From positions 1-64,000 of the forward strand of contig JAMPFN010000004.1 in NCBI GenBank assembly GCA_023664445.1: a DNA stretch of 64,000 bases. The letters run 5' to 3'. A program made the translations under genes and the position numbers. Below the pieces are notes generated by a model. The model did no database searches. It had not been told where the DNA came from and worked only from the letters and a program-made list of their open reading frames with translations. This DNA is from Clostridium sp. (GTDB taxonomy: Bacteria; Bacillota; Clostridia; Oscillospirales; Ruminococcaceae). This document shows, piece by piece, positions 36,412 through 45,781 of the stretch. Numbering within the stretch: the first letter of the stretch is position 1; the number at the start of each line of letters is the position of its first letter.

Positions 36412-38952
36412 ATGGGATTATTTAACAAAATGCAGTTGGAGAAAATAAATGCGGCTGCAAAGAAAAGTCAGCAGCTTGCAGAACCCAAAAAATCCGTTTC
36501 AAGAAAAACCATGAATAGCGAATTGAACCAGATTTCCGAAAGCGTAAAAGAGTATTTCAAGGATTCAAAAGCAGAGCTTATCACAACGGAGAAACAATTA
36601 CATGATTACATAACCCAAATGATAAAAGCCGGTATTGGCGGTATAGATACTGAAACAACAGGTCTTGACCGCCAGAAAGATCGTATTGTAGGCGTGTGTC
36701 TTTATTATCCCGGCGGTGTGGAAGTGTATATACCCAGCAAACATATTGTTCCACTGTTTGACGAGCCATATAAAAATCAGTTGGAATATGAAAAAATAGG
36801 GCATGAGCTGCAGAGACTTGTTGAAGCAAAAACAAAACTTGTATTTGCAAATGCCGACTTCGACCTTTCCTTTATATACAAAGATTTAAAGGTTGATCTG
36901 ATTGACAACTGTTTCTATGACGTTATTATCGCATGGCGGTGTCTTAAGGAAAATGAACGTGATAATTCCCTTAAAGGGTTATATAATAAGTATCCGCTGA
37001 AAGGTAAAGGAGACCCTATGAAATTCAAGGATTTCTTTTCGCCTGAGCTGTTTCCTTATTGTAAGCCTGATGTTGCAAAGCTTTATGCGGCAAACGACGC
37101 TAAAATCACATATGAACTTTTCTTGTGGCAGCTGCCGTATCTGAGAAAAGATAATCCTAAGTGTAAAAAACACAAGTTTGAAGCTATTGCCGATCTGGTA
37201 TGGGGCGTTGAGTTTCCTATGATCGGTATTTGTCAGCGTATGCACCGCAGAGGTATTTATCTTGAACAATCTGTAGCAGATATGCTTAAAAGAAAATATC
37301 TTCCGCAATGTGATGAAGAACATAAAAAGCTTCGTCATATGGTACAGGAATTAATGGAATCGCCTAAGCATTCGGCAACTGCTAAACCGCCGTTTTCAAG
37401 TGCGTCGGAGTTTAATCCTAATTCTGTACCGCACGTCAAATGGCTTTGCTATGACTTATTAAAGCTTGACGGCGGTAAAAAGGGTGGAACAGGTAAAGAA
37501 ATACTTGAAACGTTCAATCTGCCTGTTACAAAACAAATACTGAAATGCAGAAGTCTGGTTACTCTTATAGGTACTTTTGTTGAAAAACTGCCAAACAACG
37601 TTTCTGAAGACAGCAGAATACATTGTCAGTTCAAACAGATGGGAGCAGATTGTGTAGTTGGTGACACAATTATTGCAACAAATAAAGGATATAGAAAACT
37701 ATCTGAAATTTGTAAACCTGCGGAAAAATCTATAGGTAATCATATTGATGTAGGGGGAATTAAGGTTTGGAACTGCAATCAGGAACTTGAAGATGTCCAG
37801 AGCGTAATTACATTCAAGCAATATCCTACAATAAAAATTACTACTCAGTATGGATTTTCAATTGAAGGTACGTATAATCATCCGGTTATGATATCTAAAT
37901 ATACACAGGCTGATTATCTTCGTAACAGAAGTAATAAAGTAATACGAACATTTTGGGAAGGCAGATTCTTTAAGCAATTGTGTGATATAAATGTTGGCGA
38001 CATTATTGAAATTCCTTGCAATTATCAATGCAACGGAGAATATCAGCCTACTAATTTTGAGAATATCGATACAATAAATGCAAAGAAGAATATAGTTTGT
38101 CCGGATACATATACAGAGGAATTTGCTGAGTTTTTAGGAATGTATCATGCTGATGGAACTTCAAGATATAAAGACGGTACTTATGAGATTGCTATTCATA
38201 ATGATGATACTGATGTTATATCAAATGTTGACAGACTGGCTGAAAAACTTTTTCACAGCAAAACAAGTCATTATAAAGACAAACGGCCAAAGCACGGTGC
38301 ATCAACTTATATTCATGGAAAACAACTTTCCTGCATGGACAATGTATTGACACATGGCGCTTTAAATAAAAAAATTCCTGATGCAATATGGATATCCCCG
38401 GTATCTGTAATAAATTCCTACATTAAAGGAATGACATTAGATTCTACAGTCGCAAGACGTAAGAGTGGCGCAGTGACATTTGAAATAACAGTTATGGACA
38501 TGGTAGATTCACGATTAATTCAGATGCATTTAGCATCTCAGGGAATTTTATGCAGTATTCAGAATAAATTAAATCCTAAAACAGGTAATCATTTTCAAAG
38601 ATTGAAATTTGGTCCTTATGCTTATGATAAATTTAAGGAAACGATTGGATTCATAGAATCTAAGAAATATGTCAAGGATTCATACCCAAATAGTAAAAAC
38701 AGATCGAGAACAAAGCGAATTGATAATTCATTTTTTGTTGCAGTAAAAAAGATTGAGTATGGGACTAATGATGTATATGACCTTCACATTCCAGGCACTC
38801 ATTCATTTATCAGCAATGGGATTATCAGTCATAATACCGGCAGAATGTCGAGTGCCTCCCCAAATATGCAGAATATTCCAAGTCGTGCCAATGACATAAG
38901 GCATATGTTCAGAGCAACACCGGGATATGTTCTTTTATCCTCAGACTACAGT
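36412..38952 (+). CDS. polA: Family A DNA polymerase, exon 1 (contains an intein)
   Basis: 847 codons, RBS GAAAGGAGGTTTCTT. Residues 80-230 carry a 3'-5' exonuclease (GIDTETTGLD = Exo I, NADFDLSFI = Exo II, YAANDAKITYELF = Exo III). The polymerase palm starts after an in-frame intein (residues 414-808): GRMSSASPNMQNIPSR and LLSSDYS, the first half of motif A. The frame stops at once after DYS because a group I intron begins. Joined to 40161-40850 and 41209-41757 it gives 1259 residues, or 864 after intein removal, a normal size for phage Pol I. Confidence 0.93.
37651..38835 (+). mobile_element. Intein with LAGLIDADG homing endonuclease in the polymerase
   Basis: 395 residues. Starts with Cys in CVVGDTIIATNKGYRKLSEI (block A), has GTYNHPVM-type block B, and ends VYDLHIPGTHSFISNGIISHN followed by Thr as the +1 nucleophile. 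LGMYHADGTS and KGMTLDSTVA are the two LAGLIDADG-type helices, so it should be self-mobile. It is inserted between GAD and TGRMSS, the conserved TGR motif of family A polymerases. Confidence 0.93.
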
Positions 38953-39400
38953 TAATTGTTGGCGGTAGTCTATAATATAAACTCGGCTAAATCGGTGAAA
39001 GCCTTATAATTCGGTTCACTTATAAGGTCAATACCGAGCAAGTCATATGAATTTATGACATGTGTAGAGAGCATAGAAAGCTATATATTTTCCATTCAGA
39101 GAAATCTGTAAATACTGTTAATAAGCAAATTTACTTATATAAACGGCAGGGAAAGTTGAAAATAAGGTACTTTAATAAGTACACGAAGCAAGTATAGTAT
39201 AGCCCAAGTGGGTTAGCATATAGATGATATTAGTCTATAATAAGTCTATTAAATAGAAACACCGAGCTCAGTGTTGAAACGGTAACAGCTCTGCATTGAG
39301 AAGATGTGCTCCGATCCTCATGGTAACATGAGAAGTATTTAACGAATACGATCATATATCTTGTTGTAAGATACTTGCTGTAATCTATCCTGTTGATAAA

Positions 39401-39438
39401 ACCTTATATAAACTATGAGGTGATTCATATGATAGTTT
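39401..39438 (+). promoter_or_regulatory. Late-promoter-like motif in a hairpin covering the endonuclease RBS and start
   Basis: ACCTTATATA (39401-39410) runs straight into AAACTAT (39410-39416), which pairs with ATAGTTT (39432-39438). The stem encloses GAGGTGATT and the ATG at 39429. In long RNA the RBS is hidden; RNA starting just after the motif would lack the 5' arm. T4 intron endonuclease genes use exactly this logic. Confidence 0.6.
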
Positions 39439-40148
39439 ACACTATTACAAATAAAATAAACGGTATGAAATATGTAGGCTGTACTGAACGTTCAATAAAT
39501 CTTAGAATGGATGGACATAGAGCAGCATGCAAACGTGGAGTAAAATTTAAATTATATAACGCAATTCGTGAGTATGGGTGGGAGAATTTTGAAGTCAAAG
39601 TTATTGATTCTTCCGCTAAAAACAGAGATGAGTTGTACAAATTAGAATCTTATTATGTAGAGAAATTTGATTCAATTAATAATGGATATAATATGATACC
39701 TGGCGGAGATTATAATCCTATGGATAATAAAGAAGTAGCAGATAAGCATGATAAGATAATGAGATTAGAACGTGTCCGTTCAGAAATCTCTAACTCCATG
39801 ACAGCATACAGAAAAGAAAATCCATTTACATATGAGCATAGAATAGGACTTTCAAATCAAAAACGTGAATTCTATGCTTCTGAGAAAGGTAAAGCCTTAC
39901 TTGCAAAAATGGCAGCTGAACGTCAATCGAAAATAGATGCGGGTATAAAATTAAGACATTTTCAACCTGTACATTGTATTGATGAGCAAGGAAAGATAAT
40001 TGAATCATTTAAATCAATTACAGAAGCTGCAAATTGGTGGGCGAATAATTCAGATGTTTGTACTACACATGATGGATATACAACAAAGATAAGACGTTCA
40101 AATCAACAGAACCGTTATTATCACGGTTTAAAATGGATATATGATTAA
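39429..40148 (+). CDS. GIY-YIG homing endonuclease of intron 1
   Basis: 239 residues. The GIY-YIG module is at the N terminus: VYTITNKINGMKYVGCTERS (GIY...YIG equivalent: VYT-x10-KYVG), R-M-x-G-H helix, ESYYVEKF (the catalytic Glu) and NNGYNMIPGG. The C-terminal part has repeated DNA-binding modules (EHRIGLSNQKREFY, then VHCIDEQGKIIESFKSITEA NUMOD-like and LKWIYD). It would cut an intronless polymerase allele to promote intron homing. Confidence 0.92.
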   Translation: MIVYTITNKINGMKYVGCTERSINLRMDGHRAACKRGVKFKLYNAIREYGWENFEVKVIDSSAKNRDELYKLESYYVEKFDSINNGYNMIPGGDYNPMDNKEVADKHDKIMRLERVRSEISNSMTAYRKENPFTYEHRIGLSNQKREFYASEKGKALLAKMAAERQSKIDAGIKLRHFQPVHCIDEQGKIIESFKSITEAANWWANNSDVCTTHDGYTTKIRRSNQQNRYYHGLKWIYD

Positions 40149-40160
40149 AATATTTAACCG

Positions 40161-40850
40161 CAGCAAGAACCAAAATTAACCGCATATGTGTCACAAGACC
40201 CGAACATGATCAAGTCTTTTCAGGAAAATAAAGATATATACAGCTTTATTGCTGCTATAGCTTTTAATAAGACTTATGAAGAATGTAAGGAATTTACTCC
40301 AACGGGTGAATACAATCCGGAGGGTAAAGCAAGAAGAACAGAAGCAAAATCAGTGGTCCTTGGCATCCTTTACGGTCGTTCTATACCAAGTATAGCCGAT
40401 CAGTTATACAGTCGAGAGGACTGGTCAGATGAAAAGAAAGTCAAACAGGCACAATACGTGTATGATTCTGTACTGAACGCTTTTCCGGCTTTAAGAGAAT
40501 TTATGGTAAGTTCTCAGAGCTTTGCCAAAAAGCATGGGTATGTTGAAACGATTTTAGGCAGAAGAAGACATATTCCTGATATGATGCTGCCTGATTTTGA
40601 ATTTGTTCCTATGACAGGATACGTGAATCCCGATATTGACCCGCTTGATATAAATACTCTGAATGGTGGGAATGAGATTCCGAAACGAATTCAGGAAGCT
40701 CTTTACAAGGAATTGACTTCTTATAAATATTTCGGACAAGTTGCAAAGCGTATAAAACAGCTTGCGGAAAATGAACATATCAAGGTGATCAATAACAGAT
40801 TTAAAATTTCAGAAGCAACAAGACAGATTTGTAACTCGATCATACAGGGT
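40161..40850 (+). CDS. polA: Family A DNA polymerase, exon 2
   Basis: 230 codons. Opens QQEPKLTAYVSQDPNMIKSF, the second half of motif A. It contains the O-helix/motif B region (TEAKSVVLGILYGRSIPSIA, matching R-x3-K-x6-YG) and ends NSIIQG, where the motif before QGSAAD is cut by intron 2. The start follows directly from the intron boundary, so no ribosome-binding site is expected. Confidence 0.9.
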
Positions 40851-41208
40851 GAACCAAACCGGTTAAACTGCCCATTTGCTGTAAACTGCATTACTCACAG
40901 GTGTGTAGCTTAAAGCTATGCTAACGGTATCAGTTGAATAAGACCTCTGACCCAAGTGTTACAACAAGATGTCAGATGTTATCAAAGGACGAAGCCGCTG
41001 ACTAAGAGAACCTACGGTCCTGAAATATGGATAGCAGGTAATACCGTGTTACTTATTTAGAGAAAGTAGGACAGCTCTAAATAAAAATGTACAGACTAAT
41101 TCAATTAATGAATGTAGGACGGAAGATGAGTTACCGTCCGAATAGTGCAACTCAATGTAAATTGAGAAGAGATAGTCGGGAACTTATTGAAAAATAAGTG
41201 GCGGTCTG
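40851..41208 (+). mobile_element. Group I intron 2 in the polymerase gene (ORF-less)
   Basis: 358 bases. The exon ends CAG GGT (terminal T) and the intron ends in G before AGT GCC GCC GAT, restoring QG-SAAD. The core AGAAGAGATAGTCGGGAAC near 41163-41181 matches the group I S element (P7), and GGACGAAGCCGCTGACTAAG lies upstream. No endonuclease gene is present, so it is not self-mobile unless helped in trans. Confidence 0.88.
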
Positions 41209-43825: not shown

Positions 43826-45781
43826 ATGACTCTTGCAAATAAATATCGTCCAAAATCCTTTGAAGATGTTTGCGAACAGGGATTAGTAACAAATATCCTC
43901 AGCAATATGTGCAGATCAGAACTGGCTAACAGAAATTTTCTGCTTATAGGTCCTGCGGGTACAGGAAAAACAACACTTGCCAGAATCATTGGCAATACGC
44001 TAAATGAAGGCGAATGTGAACCAATTGAAATTGACGCCGCTTCAAACAGCGGTGTTGACGCTATGCGTGACATTGTGGGTGAAGCCCGGTCATATCCTAT
44101 CGGGAATAAGTTTAAAATCTTTATAATAGACGAATGTATGACAGGTGATACTGAAATACTTACAAATTTTGGGTACAAGAGAATGGACAATCTGAATGAA
44201 TCAGATTTAATTGCTCAATACACAGATAATGGAAATATTGAGTTTGTGAAACCAATTAGATTGATAAAAAAACATTTTGAGGGAGATTTGGTTTGTTGGC
44301 AGCCAATACAAGGACATACTATAAAAATGACACCACATCATGTACAACCCTTGCATTTTGTAAAGTCTAATTCTATAAAAGAATCTTATATTAAAGATGT
44401 TAAGTTTAATCAGGCGAACGAACTTATTGTTGCAGGAAATGGTATAGGAAATTCATCTGAACTGTCCCCAATGGACAGATTGGCCATTGCGAGTCAAGCT
44501 GACGGATGTATTCAGTTTGAGAGCAGTACATATAATATGTGGTTAATCTCTTTGAAAAAGCAAAGAAAAATAGAAAGAATACTTAATTTGTTTAAGGAAG
44601 CAAATGTTGAATACAATGAAATTTCTTCGATACGTCCGGATGTTAGAAGATTTACATATAAAATGCCTAAGACGGTTTCAAAGAAGCTTTCTTCTTACTT
44701 CTCTTTAGATTTTAACTATGATAGAGCAAGACAATTTATTGAAGAAGTACAAAAATGGGATGGATATGTATCTCTGAACTATATCGAATACTTATCTATC
44801 GTAAAAGAAAATACAGATTTTGTATCAGCAGTTGCTACGTTAGGAGGCTATTCTTGCAAACAGGTTGTGGTACATGATAGCCGAAAAGAAACATATAAGG
44901 ATACGCATAAGGTCTTTATGTATGATACCGTATATAGAGGATGTCAACGTATACAAAAAACCATTACTAAAGAATATTTTAATGGAAATGTTTATTGTGT
45001 TGAAGTTCCATCACATAAAATTATTGTACGTGCAGAAGGATTTACTTTTGTTACTGGTAATTGTCATGCGCTTAGCTCTGCTGCGTGGCAGAGCTTGCTG
45101 AAAGTGCTTGAGGAATCTCCGGCACGAAGTGTGTTCATCTTCTGCACGACCAATCCTGAGAAAATTCCCAATACTATTATATCTCGTGTGCAGACATTTC
45201 AGCTTTCAAAAATCAGCCTGAACGGAATTTACAACCGGCTTATTCATGTGCTGAAAAACGAAAATACATCGGGACGTAATATAATTTATTCGGATGACGG
45301 AGTTATGTTTATTGCAAAGCTTGCAAACGGCGGTATGCGTGACGCTTTGACTTTGCTTGATAAAGTTCTTGTCTATTCAAATGACATCAATTCTAAAACT
45401 GTAACAGAAGCGCTGAACTTGCCGAATTATGATAATTATTTTGATTTGCTCAGTGCAGTCGCCAAGAAAGATAATACCGTAATTTCGTCTGTAATTCATG
45501 ATGTGTATAATTCCGGCGTTAATTTTGTTAAGTGGTTTGAGGATTTTCATTCTTTTGTAATGAATATTGTGAAATATATTTTCTTACAGGATATCAATAA
45601 AACCATGATACCGGTACATTATCAGGATAAGATAAGTAAGTACGGTTCTTCTCATTCGACGGTTTGTCTGAGACTTGCAAATAAACTGCTGAATCTTAAT
45701 CAGGAACTCCGTACCACAAATTATCAGCAGGAAATAGCATTGACATATTTATGTTCTGCTCCCACACAAAAGAAACAGTAG
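43826..45781 (+). CDS. dnaX: Clamp-loader gamma/tau subunit (contains an intein)
   Basis: 651 residues as read. AAA+ motifs: YRPKSFEDVCEQ, Walker A GPAGTGKTT (42-50), Walker B FIIDE interrupted after residue 103 by a 309-residue intein, then CHALSSAAWQSLLKVLEESP, sensor 1 FIFCTTNPEKI and SRVQTFQLSKI. Without the intein the protein is 342 residues, a gamma-length DnaX without tau extension. It works with delta (48025) and delta-prime (48942) to load the clamp. Confidence 0.92.
   Translation: MTLANKYRPKSFEDVCEQGLVTNILSNMCRSELANRNFLLIGPAGTGKTTLARIIGNTLNEGECEPIEIDAASNSGVDAMRDIVGEARSYPIGNKFKIFIIDECMTGDTEILTNFGYKRMDNLNESDLIAQYTDNGNIEFVKPIRLIKKHFEGDLVCWQPIQGHTIKMTPHHVQPLHFVKSNSIKESYIKDVKFNQANELIVAGNGIGNSSELSPMDRLAIASQADGCIQFESSTYNMWLISLKKQRKIERILNLFKEANVEYNEISSIRPDVRRFTYKMPKTVSKKLSSYFSLDFNYDRARQFIEEVQKWDGYVSLNYIEYLSIVKENTDFVSAVATLGGYSCKQVVVHDSRKETYKDTHKVFMYDTVYRGCQRIQKTITKEYFNGNVYCVEVPSHKIIVRAEGFTFVTGNCHALSSAAWQSLLKVLEESPARSVFIFCTTNPEKIPNTIISRVQTFQLSKISLNGIYNRLIHVLKNENTSGRNIIYSDDGVMFIAKLANGGMRDALTLLDKVLVYSNDINSKTVTEALNLPNYDNYFDLLSAVAKKDNTVISSVIHDVYNSGVNFVKWFEDFHSFVMNIVKYIFLQDINKTMIPVHYQDKISKYGSSHSTVCLRLANKLLNLNQELRTTNYQQEIALTYLCSAPTQKKQ
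44135..45061 (+). mobile_element. Intein inside the clamp-loader Walker B motif
   Basis: 309 residues from Cys104 (CMTGDTEILTNFGYKRMDNL, block A) to Asn412 (FTFVTGN) with Cys as the +1 residue. Block B-like PHHVQPLHF and LAGLIDADG-type LAIASQADGCIQF and EVQKWDGYVSL are present. The penultimate residue is Gly rather than His before Asn. It splits the DE of Walker B from CHAL, the most conserved part of the ATPase. Confidence 0.92.

Follow-up and report, generated by a model that had tools for sequence, protein, structure and literature searches.

The closest described system is I-TevI of the phage T4 td intron, for which RNA structure hides the ribosome binding site (RBS) on early and middle transcripts, while RNA made from a late promoter omits the 5' part of this structure (PMC2988022, PMC3014915, PMC3073962). 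Loss of the RBS structure harms splicing (PMC3014915). Precedents for this type of control include I-TevI, I-TevII, I-TevIII, segB and Aeh1 mobE (PMC2988022), and RBS hiding is also used by free-standing endonuclease genes (PMC3014915, PMC2988022). In the T4 late-gene, segB and mobE cases that have been worked out, the late promoter is located inside the 5' strand of the RBS structure (PMC3014915, PMC2988022). RBS hiding combined with an internal late promoter has previously been worked out in T4-like phages. In addition, Bacillus phages SPO1, Bastille and their relatives carry group I introns in their DNA polymerase genes, and many of these introns encode homing endonucleases; the available part of the source on these introns describes mostly HNH-class enzymes in the polymerase introns of Bastillevirinae, and promoter or RBS control of the Bacillus phage introns is not described in it (PMC11878797).

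The locus described here is an intron within the gene for the family A DNA polymerase of a gut-type phage, in a window of 64,000 bases (the whole stretch of DNA analysed, C102:1-64000, on a contig of 68,180 bases from a 2.8 Mb assembly). Like the Bacillus phage introns it resides in a polymerase gene, but it encodes a GIY-YIG enzyme. As in the T4 td intron with I-TevI (and also I-TevII and I-TevIII), the RBS of this enzyme is predicted to be sequestered on RNA that begins upstream (PMC2988022, PMC3014915), and, as for T4 I-TevI, a putative late promoter overlaps the 5' side of the structure, so that late RNA would free the RBS. Unlike in I-TevI, the promoter consensus is AACCTTNTATA rather than TATAAATA, the motif itself is the arm that pairs with the Shine-Dalgarno sequence (SD), the host gene is DNA polymerase A, and the ORF follows the intron core and stops 12 nt short of the 3' splice site, whereas the I-TevI ORF is located in P6. 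Furthermore, no I-TevI-like operator resembling the homing site was found over the promoter (best 20-nt match 13-14, p 0.17-0.48), an element that is known for I-TevI and is unnecessary for the hairpin mechanism. Hiding of the RBS on long RNA is also shared with T4 e, soc and 49 and with Aeh1 mobE and T4 segB (PMC3014915, PMC2988022), but here the late promoter consensus already contains the SD complementarity, which is therefore seen again at several late genes. We class the locus as a variant of I-TevI-like control in an unrelated phage group, since the promoter consensus here serves as the anti-SD arm itself.

Genes in the window include those for a T4-type portal, tail sheath, terminase, UvsX-like recombinase, clamp loader and family A DNA polymerase; the portal, the tail sheath and the other phage genes therefore assign it to a contractile-tailed phage. 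Another contig of the same assembly, C146, has a tail tube gene and nine of the 24 late promoter motifs of the assembly, all nine on the same strand (L303-L306), and is probably a second contig of this phage. Close relatives of the phage were found only among uncultured viral contigs: no close isolate was present in the phage collection searched, and none of 295 sampled genomes of the same order was a further carrier of the enzyme or the intron.

Table. Features of the intron locus and of related loci; positions refer to the window unless a locus is named.
Feature	Position	Strand	Basis
Intron 1 (group I-like), family A DNA polymerase gene	38953..40160	+	Boundaries deduced from exon frames, polymerase family matches and relatives
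Intron core, 3' half: AAGAUnUnnUCCGA segment with adjoining stems	39197..39349	+	Covariance model R1
Outer stem, 5' side, reaching the start codon region	39380..39396	+	Minimum free energy fold
Phage late promoter motif AACCTTATATA	39400..39410	+	Motif statistics, gene context
5' arm ACCUUAUA, within the promoter motif	39401..39408	+	Predicted fold
5' repeat AAACTAT of the initial annotation	39410..39416	+	Unsupported as stem
3' arm UAUGAGGU, SD-containing	39414..39421	+	Predicted fold
Putative late transcript start	39415..39417	+	Y-R initiator signature, 72 motif sites
SD GAGGTG	39417..39422	+	Sequence
Outer stem, 3' side, over the start codon and codons 2-4	39425..39440	+	Minimum free energy fold
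GIY-YIG homing endonuclease ORF, 239 aa (ATG at 39429-39431)	39429..40148	+	PF01541, E 5.2e-8
3' repeat ATAGTTT of the initial annotation	39432..39438	+	Unsupported as stem
AATCGTTAT copies	778, 1701, 17575(-), 23809(-), 23879(-), 26223, 32704, 35589, 41653, 47961		
Free-standing GIY-YIG cassettes, TTGACA-17-TATAAT-like promoter inside RBS hairpin	L026, L027, L034, L035, L175, L197, L203, L209		
Polymerase restart/TAG sites	L026 6700-6780, L034 6700-6760, L042 6774-6780, L188 5994-6000, L200 5994-6000		

Intron 1 is inserted between exon 1, which ends at 38952 (...GACTACAGT), and exon 2, which starts at 40161 (CAGCAAGAACC), and it splits polymerase motif A (DYS|QQEPK) at a codon boundary where its relatives also carry an intron. 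Nine ORF-less intron cores can be aligned over their whole length, and in 38 of the 78 predicted pairs of this alignment both bases have changed while pairing is preserved. Judged by its sequence, intron 1 has the features expected of a group I core, namely a P1-type pairing (exon CUAC with intron GUAG), U at the 5' splice site (the last base of exon 1 is T), G as the last base of the intron, and an S-like AAGAUAUAGUCC segment, in the form of AAGATATAGTCC in the relatives and AAGATGTGCTCC in the window. The AAGATATAGTCCGA of the relatives (AAGATGTGCTCCGA in the window) resembles the S segment that is conserved in group I introns. Rfam group I models gave no match to intron 1 at either the gathering or a relaxed threshold, and it is therefore termed a divergent group I-like intron, an Rfam match being a test against a library and not a defining feature of group I introns. 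The Rfam search was replaced by the alignment of relatives and by our own covariance model of the 3' half of the core (R1). This model, which has the window among its training members, finds L020 (5.9e-19) and L159 (3.7e-16), both outside the training set, and finds nothing in loci of a distant polymerase clade that have GIY-YIG cassettes. Intron 1 thus appears to be a structured RNA that is conserved and bears hallmarks of group I introns, and self-splicing is predicted.

Aligned with its relatives, the endonuclease keeps Y4, Y15, G17, R26, H30, E73 and N88, and the residues that are invariant across six intron relatives are intact in the window ORF. In most relatives the ORF occupies an early intron loop, and its stop codon falls within the conserved GTGTAGAG of the core. 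The control region next to the start travels with the ORF, as AACCTTATAT or a similar sequence also precedes the start in L016, L020, L022 and L028. The endonuclease cassette is found in two different intron loops, with the motif in front both times.

The promoter motif AACCTTNTATA occurs nine times in the window against an expectation of 0.26, a count reached by none of 100 shuffles, and 18 of its 24 copies in the 2.8 Mb assembly are located on two phage-like contigs. With one mismatch allowed, AACCTTATATA shows strand counts of 7:22, 2:27, 18:4 and 21:1 in relatives, and the strands are more balanced for the reversed pattern. Genes downstream of the motif include those for portal, tail fibre and tail tube, and the sole late motif between 35.7 and 50.9 kb, where the replication genes reside, is the intron copy. 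On these statistics and gene contexts we take AACCTTNTATA to be a real, phage-specific promoter motif. The fifth and sixth bases after TATA show a Y-R step (60 of 72 and 62 of 72 motif sites), which may be read as an initiator; initiator spacing of this kind matches T4 late promoters. The start that we infer for late transcripts (Table) lies downstream of ACCUUAUA, so late RNA would lack the 5' arm of the SD hairpin. Another motif, AATCGTTAT, is present ten times in the window against 1.3 expected, precedes several other genes including replication genes, and is also enriched upstream of genes in the relatives G298 and G299; it is probably an early or middle promoter.

In RNAs that begin upstream of the motif, ACCUUAUA is predicted to pair with UAUGAGGU in a stem of -6.4 kcal/mol with a five-nt loop. 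The probability of this stem is ~0.92-1.0 for RNA starts at 39300, 39340, 39380 or 39398, and the predicted SD accessibility in such RNAs is 0.00-0.06. RNA that starts at 39415 or 39417 lacks the 5' arm, and in it the SD is predicted to be largely free, with SD bases 0.1-0.85 open and the start codon 0.82-0.98 open; for a start at 39416 the start codon is predicted to be partly paired, which counts against a switch. A larger fold across 39380-39440 has z = -3.9, with none of 200 shuffles as stable, and its z of -4.4 places the start region in the bottom 1% when compared with 391 gene starts from these phages. The outer stem of this larger fold is one of alternative folds. The ACCU/AGGU part of the pairing is already given by the sequences of the motif and of the SD, and SD occlusion in comparison with shuffled upstream sequence was not significant per locus; this per-locus shuffle test was replaced by the fold z-scores over the 391 gene starts and by the comparison of long and late RNA.

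The predicted switch appears partly conserved among the intron relatives. All eight stem pairs are kept in L028 (ACCUUGUA/UAUGAGGU) and L022 (ACCUUUAA/UUGGAGGU), and in L022 pairs 6 and 7 have changed on both sides. The predicted SD accessibility in long and late RNA is 0.00/0.79 for the window, 0.00/0.65 for L022 and 0.02/0.69 for L028, and in L016 the SD is predicted to be hidden through another pairing (0.01/0.38). L020 has the motif and no predicted switch (0.86/0.62), and L023, L024, L030 and L031 have neither the exact motif nor a strong SD block. The late motif of the subclade of L022 and L147 was searched for and none was clearly identified, so AACCTTTAATA in L022 may or may not be the late promoter of its phage.

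In the distant polymerase clade, the same GIY-YIG family is present in the polymerase locus and the intron core is absent. All 12 cassettes examined there, several of which are close relatives of one another and not independent, have a TTGACA/TATAAT-like promoter with 17-nt spacing (10-12 of 12 matches). In the nine cassettes with an SD, the predicted transcript start is 0-2 nt upstream of the SD, and the RBS of eight of these nine folds with z of -3.5 to -6.4. The late-motif introns and the sigma-70-like cassettes together mean that one layout, with the promoter within the 5' side of an RBS structure and the predicted start at the SD, recurs with two unrelated promoter types, which suggests that homing endonuclease genes have repeatedly been silenced on the RNA of their host genes and provides testable cases outside T4.

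The computed features, namely the motif and its genome-wide use, the predicted hairpin, the predicted effect of the start site and the partial conservation, lead us to consider it fairly probable that the intron endonuclease has its own late promoter, with its SD locked on upstream RNA and freed on late RNA. For transcription start, timing, translation block and benefit to splicing, we infer the following course. The polymerase pre-mRNA, made early from an upstream start, would carry the promoter motif as RNA, and ACCUUAUA would fold back onto UAUGAGGU, so that ribosome binding would be blocked and the intron left free to fold and splice. Late RNAs would begin at the SD itself and, without the 5' arm, could be translated to give the endonuclease late in infection.

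Two other views of the local structure were considered. The initial annotation had proposed that the start codon is hidden in a hairpin of AAACTAT and ATAGTTT, after the design of I-TevI. The placement of the repeats on either side of GAGGTG and ATG is as it described, and AACCTTATATA does directly precede the 5' repeat, abutting it with a 1-nt overlap. Late RNA would lose the 5' arm of this stem as well. However, the stem (-2.6 kcal/mol) would leave the SD and ATG in a 15-nt loop, and its pairing probability is 0.00 for RNA starts at 39300-39398, where another stem is predicted, and 0.07 for a start at 39409. Perfect 7-nt repeats around SD and start are near chance, being found at 5.6% of the 391 gene starts and in 4.9% of sequences obtained by shuffling this region, and the repeat is not visible in L028, whose start region is the most similar among the relatives; the ground for refutation that the initial annotation had named, lack of conservation in related introns, applies to this stem. 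The stem was rejected on its probability and near-chance frequency, and it is scarcely credible as the regulatory hairpin; it would only loop out the RBS, whereas in the predicted stem the SD is paired to the promoter motif. The broader comparison with I-TevI holds for the GIY-YIG intron gene, the late motif and, according to the folding model, an RBS hidden on upstream RNA, but not for the hairpin named. It is also very improbable that the predicted stem is a part of the ribozyme, such as a P9-type peripheral helix, rather than a regulator of translation. Its position downstream of the core and upstream of the 3' splice site would suit such a helix, but the core is complete without it, it is absent from the ORF-less L017, and in relatives the motif and SD stem move with the ORF to another intron loop.

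A more general explanation is that AACCTT happens to complement SDs, which would produce a hairpin at any close gene without special regulation of the intron gene; translation of read-through RNA would nonetheless remain poor. Among 44 late-motif genes from six phages (motif within 62 nt of the start), the SD is on average 0.25 accessible in long RNA and 0.49 in late RNA, and at 32 of the 44 its accessibility is below the level obtained when the letters of the motif are shuffled; the AACCTT-SD complementarity thus acts widely. Equally strong motif-SD stems are found at several non-intron late genes (L134, L131, L129). The match between motif and SD is not significantly better than with permuted partners (p = 0.15), a result that also favours a by-product, and we do not claim co-adaptation of motif and SD. 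Nevertheless, three intron genes are among the four with the shortest motif-to-start distances (28-30 nt), the larger fold at intron genes also reaches the start codon, the L022 stem has two-sided base changes, and the same layout surrounds an unrelated promoter in the distant clade. We consider a by-product unlikely. A tentative further idea, which we regard as rather unlikely, is that AACCTTNTATA doubles as an anti-Shine-Dalgarno element in this phage group, by which read-through RNA would lock the next gene and near late genes, including the intron endonuclease gene, would be translated solely from their own late transcript.

Other insertions and breaks were observed in the polymerase gene and its neighbourhood. 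A second, ORF-less intron of the polymerase gene is located at 40900-41205; its 3' part has 73-88% identity to pieces of Bacillus phage G and of Enterocloster, Enterococcus, Staphylococcus and Fusobacterium phages, which makes a wide spread of this intron probable, and it shows only weak similarity to RAGATH-7. The polymerase also contains an intein (36412-38955) with a Pfam Intein_splicing match, and the DnaX-like clamp loader (43826-45781) has an apparent intein inserted between CMTGDTEIL and FVTGNCHA. Just before motif A, four relatives carry an intein-like (Hint-like) segment of ~65 aa (L020 4690-4920, L021 5670-5907, L022 4640-4860, L159 2030-2250), the frame of which ends at a stop located among the codons for motif A (UGC UGA C in L022, UUC UGA C in L159); this may reflect a split gene, a frameshift or a degenerate intein. 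The second polymerase piece of the distant clade begins anew, from an SD and ATG of its own, immediately upstream of motif A, and DYS and QQEPK are separated by TAG plus 3-5 bases (6, 7 or 8 nt in total), which needs recoding or removal.
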